Shown: positions 6,941 to 15,641 of the stretch, piece after piece
How positions within the stretch are numbered: the stretch's first letter is position 1
Layout of the letters: every line of letters starts with the position of its first letter
Source of the DNA: Halanaeroarchaeum sulfurireducens
GTDB taxonomy: Archaea > Halobacteriota > Halobacteria > Halobacteriales > Halobacteriaceae
Reading direction: 5' to 3'
DNA: 64,000 bases
Assembly: GCF_001011115.1 (NCBI RefSeq)
Contig: NZ_CP008874.1
Coordinates: 1,378,440 to 1,442,439, forward strand
Notes under the pieces: model-generated
Told to the model about the DNA's origin: nothing
Database searches by the model: none
Seen by the model: the letters and a program-made list of their open reading frames with translations, nothing else
Program-made: the position numbers and the translations under genes

Positions 6941-6973
6941 TTTATATATCGGAACGGCTAACGTGGTGTTAGC
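6941..6973 (+). promoter_or_regulatory. TATA box and HSR1-type palindrome of the hsp20-like/cdc48 operon
   Basis: A strong TATA element (TTTATATA, 6941-6948) sits about 30 bp before the ATG at 6977. Directly downstream, over the expected start site, is the perfect palindrome GCTAAC-GTGGT-GTTAGC (6957-6973). Its core CTAAC-N5-GTTAG is identical to the site I recall for the Archaeoglobus fulgidus heat-shock regulator HSR1, which controls its own hsp20-cdc48 operon. Repression by occluding the start site is the natural reading; no regulator gene lies next to it here. Confidence 0.75.
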
Positions 6974-6976
6974 AAG

Positions 6977-7228
6977 ATGGAATCCGCACCCCACCAGGCC
7001 CGCGACGAGGTGTTGTATCGCCAGTACGACTACGGTGACGAAACGGTGTTCGTCGCCGACCTCGGTGCGAGCGGCATGAATGCGTCCGTGGACGTCATCG
7101 GGGGGACCGCGATCGTGGTCCTCGATACCCCGGAGGGGTCCGAACAGTACGAGTTCGACGTTCCGGCGGGGGACGCGCATACGTTTATTTCGAATGGCGT
7201 GCTTACTGTCGAGGTGAGCGAAGAATGA
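6977..7228 (+). CDS. Mini Hsp20/alpha-crystallin-like protein upstream of Cdc48
   Basis: An 83-residue protein whose C-terminal half has the strand pattern of the alpha-crystallin fold and ends in [11 protein letters not shown], the classic final strand of small heat-shock proteins (NGVLTV). The I-x-I tail needed for oligomer assembly is absent and the domain is shorter than a standard Hsp20, so it is probably a divergent relative or adaptor rather than a typical chaperone. It overlaps cdc48 by 4 bp (ATGA), so the two are translationally coupled, which suggests a client-handling or cofactor role for Cdc48. Function is inferred from fold resemblance and context only. Confidence 0.7.
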
Positions 7229-9507
7229 GCGACCCGATAGAACTCACCGTCAAACCACTCAAACAGAAAGACGCGGGCCGTGGACTCGCCGCCGTCGATC
7301 GCGCGTCGATGCAGAAGATGGACCTCGAGAACGGGGACTACATCGTCATCGAGGGCACACAGCAGGGACGCGCCGTCGGGCGCGTCTGGCCGGGCTATCC
7401 CGAAGACGAGGGCAAGGGCGTCATTCGCATCGACGGTCGGCTCCGACAGGAGGCAGACGTCGGGATCGACGATCGGGTCACCGTGACGAAAGCCGATATC
7501 AAACCCGCGACCGCAGTGACCGTGGCCCTCCCCCAGAACCTTCGCATCCGGGGGAACGTCGAGCCGATGATTCGGGACAAGTTGAGCGGCCGACCCGTGA
7601 CCACGGGACAGACGGTGCCCGTGTCTCTGGGATTCGGCGGCATTGCCTCGGTTTCGGGCCAGCAGATCCCGCTGAAGATCGCTGAGACGGATCCCAGCGG
7701 CACGGTCGTCGTGACCGATTCCACCGAGATCCGGCTGAGCGAGCGCCCCGCCGAGGACATCGCTGGTCAGGAGACCGGCGCGGCGGACACCCCGAACATC
7801 ACCTACGAGGACATCGGTGGCCTGGACGAGGAACTCGAACAGGTCCGCGAGATGATCGAATTGCCTATGCGACACCCCGAGCTCTTCCAGCAGCTCGGCA
7901 TCGAACCGCCCAAGGGCGTTCTCCTCCACGGTCCGCCAGGGACCGGCAAGACCCTCATCGCGAAGGCCGTGGCGAGTGAGATCGATGCCGCCTTCAAGAA
8001 CATCTCCGGCCCGGAGATCATGTCGAAGTACTACGGCGAGTCCGAAGAGCAACTCCGCGAGGTCTTCGAGGAGGCCGAAGAGGAAGCCCCGGCCGTCATC
8101 TTCATCGACGAGATCGACTCCATCGCGCCCAAGCGCGGGGAAACCTCTGGCGACGTCGAGCGTCGGGTCGTTGCCCAGTTGCTCTCGCTAATGGACGGCC
8201 TCGAGGAGCGCGGCGACGTCGTCGTTATCGCGGCGACCAACCGCGTGGACGCCATCGACCCGGCACTGCGCCGCGGGGGACGCTTCGACCGCGAGATCGA
8301 GATCGGCGTCCCCGACAAGAAGGGGCGCAAGGAGATCTTCCAGGTCCACACGCGCGGCATGCCACTGACCGACGAAATCGACCTGGACGAGTTCGCCGAG
8401 AACACCCACGGCTACGTGGGTGCGGATATCGAGCAACTGGCAAAGGAAGGGGCGATGAACGCGCTCCGTCGCGTCCGCCCCCAGATCGACCTCGAGTCCG
8501 ACGAGATCGACGCCGAGATCCTGGAGGGAATCCAGGTCACGGAGGACGACTTCAAGCAGGCGATGAAGGGAATCGAGCCCGCCGGGCTCCGCGAGGTCTT
8601 CATCGAGGTACCCGACGTCACCTGGGAGTCGGTGGGCGGCCTGACCGAAACCAAAGAGCGTCTCCGCGAGACGGTCCAGTGGCCACTCGAGTACGGTACG
8701 GTATTCGAAGAGATGGATCTCGAACCGGCGAAGGGCATTCTTCTCTACGGGCCGCCGGGCACCGGGAAGACGCTCCTGGCCAAGGCCGTCGCCAACGAGT
8801 CGACCAGCAACTTCATCTCGGTGAAGGGGCCGGAGCTGCTCAACAAGTACGTCGGCGAATCCGAGAAGGGCGTTCGCGAGATCTTTCAGAAGGCCCGGCA
8901 GAACGCGCCGACGATCATCTTCTTCGACGAGATCGACTCCGTCGCCGGCGAGCGGGGCCGCCACGCCGGTGACTCCGGCGTCGGCGAGCGCGTGGTTTCC
9001 CAGCTCCTCACGGAACTCGACGGCATCGAGGACTTAGAGGACGTCGTGGTCGTTGCCACGACGAACCGCCCGGATCTCATCGACTCGGCACTGTTGCGCC
9101 CGGGGCGGCTCGACCGGCACATCCACGTGCCCGTCCCCGACCAAGAAGCACGCAAAGCCATCTTCGAGGTTCATACCGAGAACAAGCCCCTGGCCGACGA
9201 CATCGACCTGGATGAACTCGCTCGACGGACTGAGAACTACGTGGGCGCCGACATCGAAGCCGTCTGCCGGGAGGCCACAATGTCTGCGACCCGCGAATTC
9301 ATCAATAGCGTCGCTCCCGACGAGGCAGAAGACAGCGTCGGCAACGTCCGGATCACGATGGACCACTTCGAGGAGGCCCTCGAGTCGGTCGCCCCGAGCG
9401 TCGACGACGAGGTGACCGAGCGCTACGAGGAGATGGAAGAGCGGTTCAAAAAGGCGCGGACGGCACCCGAAGACGAAGACCAGGCGGGCGGTCGAGCGTT
9501 CCAGTAA
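7225..9507 (+). CDS. cdc48: Cdc48/VAT-type AAA+ ATPase
   Basis: A 760-residue double-AAA ATPase of the Cdc48/p97/VAT family, an unfoldase that delivers proteins to the proteasome. The N-terminal double-psi barrel ([15 protein letters not shown]...) is followed by D1 with GPPGTGKT near residue 236 and [12 protein letters not shown], and D2 with GPPGTGKT near 509 and [18 protein letters not shown] arginines are visible in both ([25 protein letters not shown]). The C-terminus lacks the HbYX proteasome-docking motif and ends ...GGRAFQ. It is co-transcribed with the Hsp20-like gene under the palindrome-bearing promoter, which points to stress control. Confidence 0.96.
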
Positions 9508-9547: not shown

Positions 9548-10330
9548 TCACTCTAGCTTCTCCGCGGCGTCACGTTCGAGGAGTGGCTCGGCGTTCTCCG
9601 TGGGCAACTGAACCACGTCGTCCTCGTACAGCGAGTACTCCCGCTCGTCCACTCCAAAAATTTCGCCGACGTCGCTCGTCACTCGAACCGTCGTCGTCTC
9701 GACGTCGTCGGCAGCGGAATCGGACTGGGTGGCCGCTTCGCCCACGTCCGTCTCGTCAGCCGAGTTCGTCTCCGCGTCCGGTCCACCGCCCATCGCCTCC
9801 GCAGCAGGCGCCCCGGTGCCATTCTGCGATGGGTCCGCAGGCGATTCCGGCGGGTCGTCGGCCGGGTGTGTACTGGCGGCGTCCGATTCGTCGTTGCTGC
9901 CAGGTTCGGTGTCTGCCGCCCCGCGTTCGGCCTCGATGGGGGCGTCGCCCGCGATGACGTCCAGAACACCCTGTTTGTTCTCCTTGATGCGGTCGACGAG
10001 GTCGGTGTAGAGGTCGCGCTCCTCGTTCGTGAGTCCGGTCTGATCGTCGGGCATCCCGGCGGCAGCCAGACTCGCCTGTTTGACGAGTTTGCCGATGCGA
10101 CGCTCGTAGATGGCCTCGGCGACCTGTTCGGCGACCTCGATCTCGTCGGTCAGCTCGTTGACGGTGTCGTTGCGGAACGGCTCGTCGGCCTCGGCCGCCA
10201 CGCGGTCACGCTCCTCGCGCAGCTCCTGAATGTAGGTCGCGACGTCGGCGTAAAACGAATCGCGTAGCTCCTGGAGGCCGTCGGTCGCTCGCTCGCGGGT
10301 CTGTACGGCGCGTAACTCCTCGAGATCCAT
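9548..10330 (-). CDS. GINS complex subunit Gins51
   Basis: A 260-residue protein directly downstream of primase, the usual archaeal position of Gins51, which joins MCM and the Cdc45/GAN homologue in the replicative helicase complex. The N-terminal helical A domain (residues 1-105, MDLEELRAVQTRERATDG...) and a small beta-rich B domain at the C-terminus (about 205-260, VRVTSDVGEIFGVDEREYSL...DVVQLP) are joined by a long acidic low-complexity linker (about 125-200) typical of halophiles. The A-then-B order is that of Gins51/Sld5. Primase ends 3 bp before its start. Confidence 0.85.
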   Translation of the reverse strand: MDLEELRAVQTRERATDGLQELRDSFYADVATYIQELREERDRVAAEADEPFRNDTVNELTDEIEVAEQVAEAIYERRIGKLVKQASLAAAGMPDDQTGLTNEERDLYTDLVDRIKENKQGVLDVIAGDAPIEAERGAADTEPGSNDESDAASTHPADDPPESPADPSQNGTGAPAAEAMGGGPDAETNSADETDVGEAATQSDSAADDVETTTVRVTSDVGEIFGVDEREYSLYEDDVVQLPTENAEPLLERDAAEKLE

Positions 10331-10333
10331 CGT

Positions 10334-11509
10334 CTATTCTTTGGCCTTCTCGGCCGCCCCGCGGGCCATGAGGAATATACCCGCGTACTCTGGAAGTACC
10401 TTACGTCCCGGGGACACCACGCGCACTTCGCCGTCGAACTCGAGTCGGGTCTCGTCCTCGACCTCGACTGCGATGTCGTGACCACGGAACGTCTCGGGGA
10501 TGGCATCGGAGAGCGGATCGAAATCGGACACCTCGTCGGGGGCGAGCGGGGTGACGAGCAGACCGCTCCCGCCATGGAGTGTCTCCGGAAGCCGGATGAG
10601 CCGGTGGGTGTCGGTCGTCACCGGTTCGTCGATGTAGGCGGCACCGTCCTCGACCGTTTCCCGGACGAGTTGCCGGGCCACGGGGAGGAATGCGGGGTGG
10701 ACGTCGACGTTCCCCGAGCGCACCTGTTCGGTGTTGTCCCGCACTACCGTCAACACCGCGTTCGCGTTCTTCTCCCCGATTCGGTCGAAGCTCTGCAGAT
10801 AGTCGATCGCCGCCTCCTCGTCCATATCCAGGAGATCGTCGACGAAGTCGCCGATCCGTTCGGTGGCACGCCGACCCCACCCGCCGTCAGTGGGGAGCGA
10901 CCGGCGCGTCGTCGGCGTCTTCCGGCCCCGCCCGCCGACGGCCTCCTCCTCGACTAGCGATTCGAGTTCGACGCCCTGACCCCGGACGTACTCGACGACC
11001 TCCCGACGCTGTTGGCGATCGAGGCCGCGGACGTCCTCGTCGCGGACGTGGACGTGATAGCCGCGACCGCCCGAGAACGCCACGAACAGGTCCTCGAAGC
11101 CGAAATCGTCAGTAAGAAGATAAACGAGTCGTTCCAGGGAGTCCTTGCCCGCGGCCAGCATCTCGGCGTAGGTCGTCTCCGCCGGGTCGACGTTCGGCAG
11201 ATGGTCGGCGTCGATGTCGAAGACCAGATCGGATCCGCGCCACCCCTTCTCGGCCATGGAGCGCGCGCTCGGGTCGTCGTAGTAGCCGGCCGAGTAGTAC
11301 ACGTGCCGCGGGCGTTCCCGGGCGAGGAACGTCTCTATGTCGCCCAGATCGAGCTGGGAGCGGTGACGGACCATCGTCGTGTCCGGCCCCGACGTCCACG
11401 GGATGTATCCCCATTCGCGGGCGGCCGGATCCGGGGGCGCCGTCGGGGTCGACCAGCGGTAGTGATCGCGGAAACGGCCCCCCAGATAGGCCCGCGTTCG
11501 GTCCTCCAT
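10334..11509 (-). CDS. priS: DNA primase small (catalytic) subunit
   Basis: A 391-residue eukaryotic-type primase catalytic subunit that makes RNA primers with PriL. Motifs include YYSAGYYDDP near residue 71, the metal-binding DLVFDIDAD (Asp98, Asp100) and SGGRGYHVHV, the nucleotide-binding histidine region. Length is standard for haloarchaea. The gene starts a minus-strand pair with gins51, so leading components of the replisome are co-expressed. The large subunit is not in the window. Confidence 0.95.
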   Translation of the reverse strand: MEDRTRAYLGGRFRDHYRWSTPTAPPDPAAREWGYIPWTSGPDTTMVRHRSQLDLGDIETFLARERPRHVYYSAGYYDDPSARSMAEKGWRGSDLVFDIDADHLPNVDPAETTYAEMLAAGKDSLERLVYLLTDDFGFEDLFVAFSGGRGYHVHVRDEDVRGLDRQQRREVVEYVRGQGVELESLVEEEAVGGRGRKTPTTRRSLPTDGGWGRRATERIGDFVDDLLDMDEEAAIDYLQSFDRIGEKNANAVLTVVRDNTEQVRSGNVDVHPAFLPVARQLVRETVEDGAAYIDEPVTTDTHRLIRLPETLHGGSGLLVTPLAPDEVSDFDPLSDAIPETFRGHDIAVEVEDETRLEFDGEVRVVSPGRKVLPEYAGIFLMARGAAEKAKE

Positions 11510-12713: not shown

Positions 12714-12755
12714 CGGGCCGAAACGTACACATCAGTGCCGAGTTAATTGGACAGT

Positions 12756-15641
12756 ATGACTACATTTGATGCGGACGGCATCGAGTTAACCCGGATCGAG
12801 GACAACGTCTGGGAAATCGAGGCCGAGGAAGAAATGAATGTGCCCGTCCGCGTGATGGCGAGCGAGGCACTTCTCGAGGAGATCCAGCAGGACAAGACCC
12901 TCCAGCAGATCAAAAACGTCACCCATCTCCCCGGAATCCAGTCCCCGGCGGTCTGCATGCCGGACGGCCACCAGGGGTACGGGTTCCCGGTCGGAGGGGT
13001 GGCTGCCACAGATGCCGAAAACGGCGTCATCAGCCCTGGAGGCGTCGGGTATGACATCAATTGCCTAGCGGGAGATACGGACGTCCTCCTCTCGTTCGGG
13101 CGACGGCGCTCCATCCAAACGCTCGACGACGGAGTCGCAAGCGAGTCCGCGCGTGTTATCTCCGACCGGCCCACAGACGCGGACGTTCAGCTGTTCACGG
13201 AGTCGGAAAAGCCGGTTCTGGAACTCGTAACCGAGGCTGGAACCACGATCGAGGCCAGTCGGGATCACCCGTTCCGAACCCCGTCTGGGATGACGGAGGC
13301 CGACGAACTGGAACGAGGCTCGATCGTCCACGTTCACCCCTTCGACGGACTGCCCGACGAGGAGCCACCGTCCAAGACGATACTCACCAAAGACGACTTC
13401 TCGGACGAGGATCCCCAGCTGATCGCGGCGCTCGAGCGACGAGACCTGCTCCCGCTCTCCACGGACGATGAGGCGTTCCATCGGTTGTTGAAACTCGTGG
13501 GATTCCACACGGGCGACGGTTCGAAGAGCGGCAACCAGACGTGGTTCTACGGCGACCCCGAGGACCTCGAGGAGATCGCTACAGACATCGAGGCGATCGG
13601 TTTCACGCCGTCGAAGATCTACGAACGCGAGCGGACACACACCATCGATGGGAACTCCTTCGAGCGGACCGAGTACAGCGTTCGATCGACGGCGAACTCC
13701 TTCGCGGCGCTTCTCGAACGGCTGGGGGCGCCGACGGGGCGGAAAGTCGCCTCGGATTTTACCGTTCCAGACTACGTCGAGGACCTCACGGACTGGCAGA
13801 AGGCCCTCTATCTCTCGGCGTTCTTCGGCGCGGAGATGAGTGCACCCGACACCGTCGCGGCAATGAACTTCTATGCCCCATCGGTCTCGCACAACCGGCT
13901 AGAATCCGTCGAGGAGGCAGGTGCGCAGTTCCTCCGAGAGTTGATGGACCTCCTTGAGGACGTTGGGATCGAAACGAACGAACTCGAGCGGGTCGAACGG
14001 ACAGATCGAACGCAGGAGGTGAGTGTCCGATTCCGCTTCGGGGTCTCCAGCGAGGCGAGGAATTTGATTCGGTTCTTCACGACGGTCGGGTACCGGTACA
14101 ACGCCGAGAAGCAGCGTCGTGGCCTCCAGGCAGCGGCGTATCTCGAGAAAAAAGAGCGAGCCATCGAGCGACGGACGTCGATCGCCCGCAAGGCCGTCAC
14201 GATGTCGGACGGTGGGACGCCCGTGAGCGAGATTGCGTCCTCGTTCGACGTGGTGAATCGACGCTTCATCGAACGGAGCATCTACGATCAACGTGTGGGA
14301 CGGCCGAGGCCCTCGGCGGACTTTCCCGACTTCGAGGAGTTCGTCGAGACACACCCCATGGGTTCGGACATGACGATTCCGGTTCGTATCGAGGATATTC
14401 GGCCACTCGGAGAGAAATCGGTGTACGATATCGGCGTGGCACACGAGGCACACAACTTCGTCGCGAACGGGTTCGTCGTCTCGAACTGCGGCGTCCGAAT
14501 GGTGAAAACAAACCTCACCTACGAGGACGTACAGGGCCACGAGGAGGAACTCGTGAACGCCCTCTTCGACGCAGTTCCGTCGGGGCTGGGCGGGGGTGGT
14601 GTCGTCCAGGGGACGACCGCGACCATCGACGAGATCCTCGACCGGGGCATGCAATGGGCGCTCGACAACGGGTACGCCATCGAGGACGACCTCGAACACT
14701 GTGAGGACAACGGCTTCCGCGAGGAGGCCGACCCCTCGACGGTCTCAGACGAGGCGAAAAACCGGGGGCGCAAACAGATCGGAAGCCTGGGAAGTGGAAA
14801 CCACTTCCTTGAGGTGCAGCGGGTCACGGACATCTATCGCGAGGACGTCGCCGAGGCGTTCGGCCTCAGGGAAGACCAGATCGTCGTCCTGATTCACTGT
14901 GGTTCACGGGGACTCGGTCACCAGGTCTGCACCGATTACCTCCGCCGTATCGAACAGGACCACTCCGATCTGCTCGAGTCACTTCCCGACAAGGAACTGG
15001 CCGCTGCACCGGCGGGGAGCCCGCTGGCCGAGGACTACTACGGCGCGATGAACGCGGCCATCAACTTCGCGTGGGTGAACCGACAGCTCGTCATGCATCA
15101 GACCCGTCAGGTCTTCGCCGACGTCTTCGAGACGGACTGGCGGGACCTGGACATGTATCTGCTCTACGACGTGGCTCACAACATCGCGAAAAAGGAGACG
15201 CACACGGTGGCGGGCGAAAAAAAGGAACTCTTCGTCCATCGCAAGGGCGCGACCCGGGCGTTCCCGGCCGGACACCCGGAGGTGCCCGAGGCATACCGAG
15301 ACGTCGGACAGCCAGTCATCATTCCCGGAAGCATGGGCTCTGGAAGCTACGTTCTGCGCGGCGGGGAGAACTCGCTGGACCGAACGTTCGGATCGACCGC
15401 GCATGGGGCCGGGCGGCTGATGAGCCGGACGCAGGCCAAACAGGAGTTCTGGGGCGAAGACGTTCGGGACGAACTCCGCGACGAGAACCAGATCTACGTC
15501 AAAGCACAGAGCGGGGCCACCATCGCCGAGGAGGCCCCCGGCGTGTACAAGGACGTCGACGAGGTCGTCCGGGTCTCCGAAGAACTGGGCATCGGTGACT
15601 CGGTCGCCCGTACCTATCCGGTCGTGAACATCAAAGGGTGA
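12756..15641 (+). CDS. rtcB: RNA-splicing ligase RtcB, interrupted by an intein
   Basis: A 961-residue precursor of the 3'-phosphate/5'-OH RNA ligase that joins tRNA exons. The N-extein (residues 1-102) contains MPDGHQGYGFPVGGVAA and ends GGVGYDIN; the C-extein resumes with CGVRMVKTNL, so the intein sits directly before the active-site, Mn-binding cysteine. The C-extein carries LGSGNHFLEVQ, IHCGSRGLGHQV, HRKGATRAFPAG and the GTP-linked histidine region FGSTAHGAGR. The mature ligase would be 486 residues, normal for the family. I start at ATG 12756 (MTTFDADG) rather than the in-frame TTG at 12747. Activity must depend on protein splicing. Confidence 0.96.
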   Translation: MTTFDADGIELTRIEDNVWEIEAEEEMNVPVRVMASEALLEEIQQDKTLQQIKNVTHLPGIQSPAVCMPDGHQGYGFPVGGVAATDAENGVISPGGVGYDINCLAGDTDVLLSFGRRRSIQTLDDGVASESARVISDRPTDADVQLFTESEKPVLELVTEAGTTIEASRDHPFRTPSGMTEADELERGSIVHVHPFDGLPDEEPPSKTILTKDDFSDEDPQLIAALERRDLLPLSTDDEAFHRLLKLVGFHTGDGSKSGNQTWFYGDPEDLEEIATDIEAIGFTPSKIYERERTHTIDGNSFERTEYSVRSTANSFAALLERLGAPTGRKVASDFTVPDYVEDLTDWQKALYLSAFFGAEMSAPDTVAAMNFYAPSVSHNRLESVEEAGAQFLRELMDLLEDVGIETNELERVERTDRTQEVSVRFRFGVSSEARNLIRFFTTVGYRYNAEKQRRGLQAAAYLEKKERAIERRTSIARKAVTMSDGGTPVSEIASSFDVVNRRFIERSIYDQRVGRPRPSADFPDFEEFVETHPMGSDMTIPVRIEDIRPLGEKSVYDIGVAHEAHNFVANGFVVSNCGVRMVKTNLTYEDVQGHEEELVNALFDAVPSGLGGGGVVQGTTATIDEILDRGMQWALDNGYAIEDDLEHCEDNGFREEADPSTVSDEAKNRGRKQIGSLGSGNHFLEVQRVTDIYREDVAEAFGLREDQIVVLIHCGSRGLGHQVCTDYLRRIEQDHSDLLESLPDKELAAAPAGSPLAEDYYGAMNAAINFAWVNRQLVMHQTRQVFADVFETDWRDLDMYLLYDVAHNIAKKETHTVAGEKKELFVHRKGATRAFPAGHPEVPEAYRDVGQPVIIPGSMGSGSYVLRGGENSLDRTFGSTAHGAGRLMSRTQAKQEFWGEDVRDELRDENQIYVKAQSGATIAEEAPGVYKDVDEVVRVSEELGIGDSVARTYPVVNIKG
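13062..14486 (+). mobile_element. Intein with DOD homing endonuclease inside RtcB
   Basis: This encodes 475 residues of a class-1 intein. Block A is CLAGDTDVLLSF with Cys1; block B is TTIEASRDHPF with the expected Thr/His; the LAGLIDADG endonuclease is present as LLKLVGFHTGDG near residue 247 and LYLSAFFGAEMS near 350, both retaining acidic residues; block F is SVYDIGVAHEAHNFVANG. The C-terminus is VVSN followed by Cys+1: the final Asn is present but the usual penultimate His is Ser. The insertion site in the most conserved part of the active site is typical for inteins, and an RtcB intein is also known in Pyrococcus horikoshii. Confidence 0.93.

Follow-up and report, generated by a model that had tools for sequence, protein, structure and literature searches.

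Results and Discussion

Promoter and Operon at the Locus

The stretch of DNA analysed here (64,000 nucleotides, called the window) contains a two-gene operon in which a small Hsp20-like gene precedes cdc48, with a palindrome between the TATA box and the first start codon. The features are as follows:

6941-6948, + strand: TATA box TTTATATA of the operon promoter (sequence).
6957-6973, + strand: putative operator GCTAAC-GTGGT-GTTAGC, between the TATA box and the start codon (sequence, conservation and matrix score).
6958-6972, + strand: operator core CTAAC-GTGGT-GTTAG (CTAAC-N5-GTTAG); one extra base pair extends the palindrome.
6977-7228, + strand: gene for an 83-residue mini alpha-crystallin (Hsp20-like) protein, Pfam DUF7127 (profile and fold model).
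7225-9507, + strand: cdc48, encoding a 760-residue double-AAA ATPase (TIGR01243).

The CTAAC half-site starts 17 nt after the start of the TATA box, with nine bases between TTTATATA and CTAAC, and four bases separate GTTAG, which ends at 6972, from the ATG (6977) of the 83-residue ORF. From this arrangement the operator is expected to lie over the transcription start. In profile searches the 83-residue ORF matched Pfam DUF7127 (E = 4.9e-15) and the downstream gene was identified as Cdc48 (TIGR01243, 1020 bits). The stop codon of the mini-Hsp20 gene overlaps the cdc48 start (ATGA, 7225-7228), and the same overlap of the DUF7127 stop with the cdc48 ATG was found in 29 of 30 loci checked. The first-pass annotation had placed the palindrome GCTAAC-N5-GTTAGC over the predicted start site of an Hsp20-like/Cdc48 operon, and it is present at 6957-6973.

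The whole genome (2.21 Mb) was searched by pattern and by profile. The exact 15-mer operator occurred once and the reversed control pattern twice; within the 64-kb window, seven sites with up to two mismatches were observed against 8.4 expected by chance. The bare string is no rarer than chance, so that its significance comes from position and conservation, and on these two grounds a chance palindrome was ruled out. A weight matrix of TATA box plus operator, built from other haloarchaea, scored 38.3 at the locus, the next best score in the window being -3.6.

Conservation of the Site in Haloarchaea

Eighty named haloarchaeal DUF7127 loci (from Natrinema, Haloarcula, Halorussus, Halobacterium, Natrialba and others) were fetched by protein profile and not by DNA motif. 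When the best 15-mer near the start was taken, CTAAC-N5-GTTAG was found in all 80 with zero to two mismatches (exact in 32, one mismatch in 38 and two mismatches in 10). The GTTAG half-site was intact in 79 of the 80 loci, the left half being mostly CTAAC or CTTAC, and in 73 of the 80 promoters the TATA box began 17 nt upstream of the site. Conservation upstream of cdc48 in related genomes, one of two checks set beforehand on the earlier annotation, was thus observed at every locus fetched.

A genome scan for TATA box, spacing and operator together gave 28 matches in 59 genomes, against none for the reversed control. Whole-genome searches placed the site at one or two promoters per genome, nearly always those of cdc48 or of a TFB (TFIIB) gene. 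Among 54 sites with no more than two mismatches, 49 preceded cdc48/DUF7127 (32), TFB (13), Hsp20 (2) or proteasome alpha (2) genes. No site was found upstream of the plasmid cdc48 paralogues of H. salinarum (cdc48d), Halorussus and Haloarcula. The palindrome is thus a putative binding site for a repressor, whose spacing to the TATA box has been preserved in nearly all haloarchaea.

The 83-Residue Mini-Hsp20

The AlphaFold (AF2) model of the 83-residue protein had a pLDDT of 82.7, and the top 33 PDB matches of the DUF7127 model in Foldseek were all small Hsps, the best being the alpha-crystallin domain of Hsp20.1 (4rzk, E = 3.4e-4). Alignment of DUF7127 with the Hsp20s of hsr1-cdc48-hsp20 operons by hhalign covered the whole domain (probability 92.7, E = 4.3e-7). 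The PF00011 profile does not recognise the protein, for which DUF7127 is the sole match at E up to 1; the protein also has no C-terminal I-x-I tail, and only about 12 residues stand ahead of the domain, so that a long N-terminal arm is missing. A Natrinema plasmid record already labels a DUF7127 homologue Hsp20/alpha crystallin in the submitters' annotation. The presence of an alpha-crystallin beta-sandwich in the 83-residue protein is supported by the fold model and by the profile match to the operon Hsp20s, and the reading of it as alpha-crystallin-like in the first-pass annotation held up. The mini-Hsp20 may have arisen from the operon Hsp20 by reduction, or it may be an alpha-crystallin protein with a separate origin.

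The HSR1-Like Regulator

The second check set beforehand was for an HSR1 homologue elsewhere in the genome, and a Phr-family protein of 216 residues was found outside the window:

G000:C1:1826377-1827018 (this genome): gene for an HSR1-like winged-helix protein, 216 residues (profile and structure relatives).

This single-copy gene is unlinked, about 0.44 Mb from the mini-Hsp20-cdc48 operon. The best PDB relative of its product is Phr of Pyrococcus (2p4w, E = 1.4e-21), with SurR (PF0095) far behind (E = 3.8e-4). Its identity to the proteins encoded at the head of hsr1-cdc48-hsp20 operons is 36-40% in three families and 30-35% in family f21; the C-terminal half of HSR1 corresponds to Pfam Cmi2, and the recognition-helix residues PKAV..HL are conserved between haloarchaeal HSR1 and the operon HSR1s of other classes. 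The HSR1 profile search was positive in 55 of 59 relatives, including all 43 near-complete haloarchaeal relatives with one gene each.

The promoter of the HSR1 gene itself carries no operator in this genome (best matrix score -20.3), so that autoregulation of the A. fulgidus kind is absent or degenerate here, and it was rejected for this genome. A weak CTAAC-N5-GTGAA is kept at the HSR1 promoter in several relatives, mostly Halobacterium. Most haloarchaeal HSR1 genes share an unusual block close to AGACACCCTTTT, not a normal TATA box, about 40 nt before the start codon (L097-L126). Haloarchaeal HSR1 genes mostly adjoin gatD; in this genome the gene sits between a divergent Vms1-like gene, recognised by eye, and gatD (C1, about 1.826 Mb). 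Eukaryotic Vms1 is a partner of Cdc48.

hsr1-cdc48-hsp20 Operons in Other Classes

Other classes of the phylum have a homologue of the HSR1-like gene at the head of an hsr1-cdc48-hsp20 operon, and the same CTAAC-N5-GTTAG element precedes these operons 16 or 17 nt from the TATA box. The order hsr1-hsp20-cdc48, claimed earlier, has to be corrected accordingly to hsr1-cdc48-hsp20 for these classes; given this order, the mini-Hsp20 gene occupies the former place of hsr1, ahead of cdc48.

Six genomes with HSR1 and without DUF7127 have the site directly before one cdc48 and none at the other cdc48; in one of them, G036, the cdc48 site has three mismatches. In G034 and G036, both without DUF7127, the operator stands before a full Hsp20 gene instead, and the Hsp20 of G034 closely resembles those of the hsr1-cdc48-hsp20 operons. 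Neither an HSR1 match nor a site at any cdc48 was found in three genomes of family f2, a reduced haloarchaeal clade whose genomes are 70-78% complete. This co-absence is confined to one clade and so counts as one evolutionary event at most.

TFB and Proteasome Genes as Possible Further Targets

A search of this genome with up to three mismatches gave only one other TATA-spaced operator, at a putative target that the first-pass annotation had missed:

G000:C1:1459577-1460578, - strand: TFB (TFIIB) gene, with CTTAC-GTATG-GTTAG 17 nt after the TATA box (L063/L236).

With the cdc48-derived matrix, 22 of 110 TFB promoters scored above 20, each in a different genome; the maximum was 10.1 in 2200 shuffles, and reverse strands reached at most 5.9. 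Combining matrix scores with sites read from other scans brings the number of genomes with a TFB site to about 28 of 59. A tree of 30 TFBs requires two changes of the site label, as compared with ten in shuffles, which indicates that the site marks related TFBs and is degraded in some Halobacterium.

Among the proteasome alpha (psmA) loci examined only two scored high, and two more were identified from coordinates. The TATA-spaced operator-like site at the proteasome alpha gene of four genomes reads CTAAC-N5-GTGAA in three (L365, L366, L367) and CTAAC-N5-GTTAA in the fourth (L371). These sites are lineage-specific, and proteasome alpha was discarded as a general target.

Published Heat-Shock Data

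Heat shock of Halobacterium NRC-1 raised cdc48b 5.6-fold, cdc48d 3.4-fold, hsp5 3.0-fold, cctA 8.7-fold and tfbG 2.4-fold (PMC1971269), where the induced cdc48 and tfb paralogues may not be the operator-bearing ones. In H. volcanii, tfb2 mRNA rose up to eight-fold on heat (PMC2121645). The heat-induced hsp5-cdc48d promoter on pNRC200 of NRC-1 carries no operator, which fits control via TFB rather than directly by HSR1. According to a 2022 review, no HSR1/Phr-type mechanism had been identified in halophiles and TFBs alone were pointed to (PMC9133787). Neither an HSR1 site nor an HSR1 regulon is described for haloarchaea in the open-licence literature searched; earlier work in subscription journals is possible.

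Proposed Mechanism and Alternatives

It is very likely that a repressor of the HSR1/Phr family controls the mini-Hsp20-cdc48 operon through the palindrome and is released on protein-damaging stress such as heat, the same operator serving at the TFB gene. The sites with their geometry and conservation, the identities of the genes, the presence of the regulator gene and its joint absence with the site in one clade are direct observations; binding of HSR1 to the sites, its action as a repressor and heat as its signal are inferred. At normal temperature an HSR1 dimer would occupy the DNA between the TATA box and the start site and block recruitment of RNA polymerase; heat or another protein-damaging stress would release it from the operator, and mini-Hsp20 and Cdc48 would be made together. 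Since the same operator stands before the TFB gene, release of HSR1 in this genome would also raise the alternative TFB. In related lineages, Hsp20 or proteasome-alpha genes with the same operator before them would be reached in addition.

The alternative that fares best is that HSR1 binds the site and answers to a signal other than heat (redox, salt or protein damage in general), in the way that SurR senses sulfur. SurR belongs to arCOG01684, as do HSR1 and Phr (PMC9426492; PMC5852551), and targets such as Cdc48, the proteasome and TFB would suit any proteotoxic stress. Against this, the HSR1-like protein is far closer to Phr than to SurR among solved structures, and in Halobacterium and Haloferax heat raises the expression of cdc48 and TFB genes; we regard another signal as unlikely, while giving it some weight.

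Lower still is the probability that the operator is real but bound by another winged-helix regulator of the ArsR/TrmB type, the HSR1-like gene having another job. The genome does hold 65 loose HTH_20 matches, 18 of them over the family cut-off, and the HSR1-like gene lies apart, beside gatD and the Vms1-like gene, with no site at its own promoter. This reading is opposed by the operons of other classes, in which the same site heads an operon starting with hsr1, by the conserved recognition helix, by the one clade that lacks both HSR1 match and site, and by the CTAAC-N5-GTTAG motif reported for A. fulgidus HSR1 itself (PMC9133787); we consider it improbable. An initiator or other core-promoter element bound by no regulator, which the fixed distance from the TATA box and the position over the expected start might suggest, was dismissed, as only one or two promoters per genome bear the palindrome, almost always those of cdc48 or TFB, and neither other cdc48 paralogues nor the clade that lacks an HSR1 match have it.

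Control by HSR1 could form the upper tier of a two-tier heat-shock cascade. The HSR1-type repressor would act directly on Cdc48/mini-Hsp20 and, in many lineages, on one dedicated TFB, and this TFB, like an alternative sigma factor, would then switch on a wider set of genes without HSR1 sites (thermosome, hsp5 and others). The chances for and against such a cascade seem to us evenly balanced, and the same balance applies to the evolutionary reading held jointly with it, in which an ancestral hsr1-cdc48-hsp20 operon would have been broken up, the operator remaining at the fragment that held cdc48 and, in some lineages, at the hsp20 fragment.

Comparison with Known Systems

The HSR1 regulon of Archaeoglobus fulgidus was reportedly described by Rohlin et al. 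in 2005. The haloarchaeal system resembles it in the 5-5-5 operator CTAAC-N5-GTTAG, in the small Hsp and Cdc48 targets and in the homologous single-copy regulator. It differs in that the regulator gene is unlinked and without a clear operator of its own, the small Hsp is an 83-residue alpha-crystallin protein upstream of cdc48, and a TFB gene has been added. Phr of Pyrococcus furiosus and Thermococcus belongs to the same protein family as haloarchaeal HSR1, as the best PDB match (2p4w) indicates, and acts as a repressor of hsp20 and of an AAA ATPase gene, whose start sites it blocks; its site, with TTTA, TGGTAA and AAAA elements, is different from CTAAC-N5-GTTAG (PMC9133787).

TFB-directed control in haloarchaea (the hsp5 promoter and TFB2/TFBb; Lu et al. 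2008, cited through PMC9133787) concerns the same group of organisms and likewise involves heat-shock genes together with a TFB that is induced by heat. The account of that work given in the review names no upstream regulator of TFB; here an HSR1-type operator precedes one TFB gene. As regards the Hsp20/alpha-crystallin small Hsps, the 83-residue protein models as an alpha-crystallin domain, and departs from the usual members in the N-terminal arm, the I-x-I tail and the PF00011 match, all of which it lacks.

What appears to be new is a putative HSR1 regulon with an unlinked regulator, a mini alpha-crystallin protein in place of the small Hsp, and a recruited TFB gene. The analysis provides a candidate regulator, an operator and a target list for haloarchaeal heat-shock control that are directly testable. 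It connects a repressor that recognises a specific sequence with the gene of a general transcription factor and, if true, would link HSR1 to the TFB-driven heat-shock response. In addition, the operator kept its exact spacing while the surrounding operon came apart.

Neighbouring Genes

After cdc48, on the other strand (9548-11509, - strand), the window contains a GINS51-like gene and a primase small subunit-like gene, the latter recognised by eye. Further on, a 964-residue ORF (12747-15641) was read by eye as an RtcB RNA ligase interrupted by an intein.
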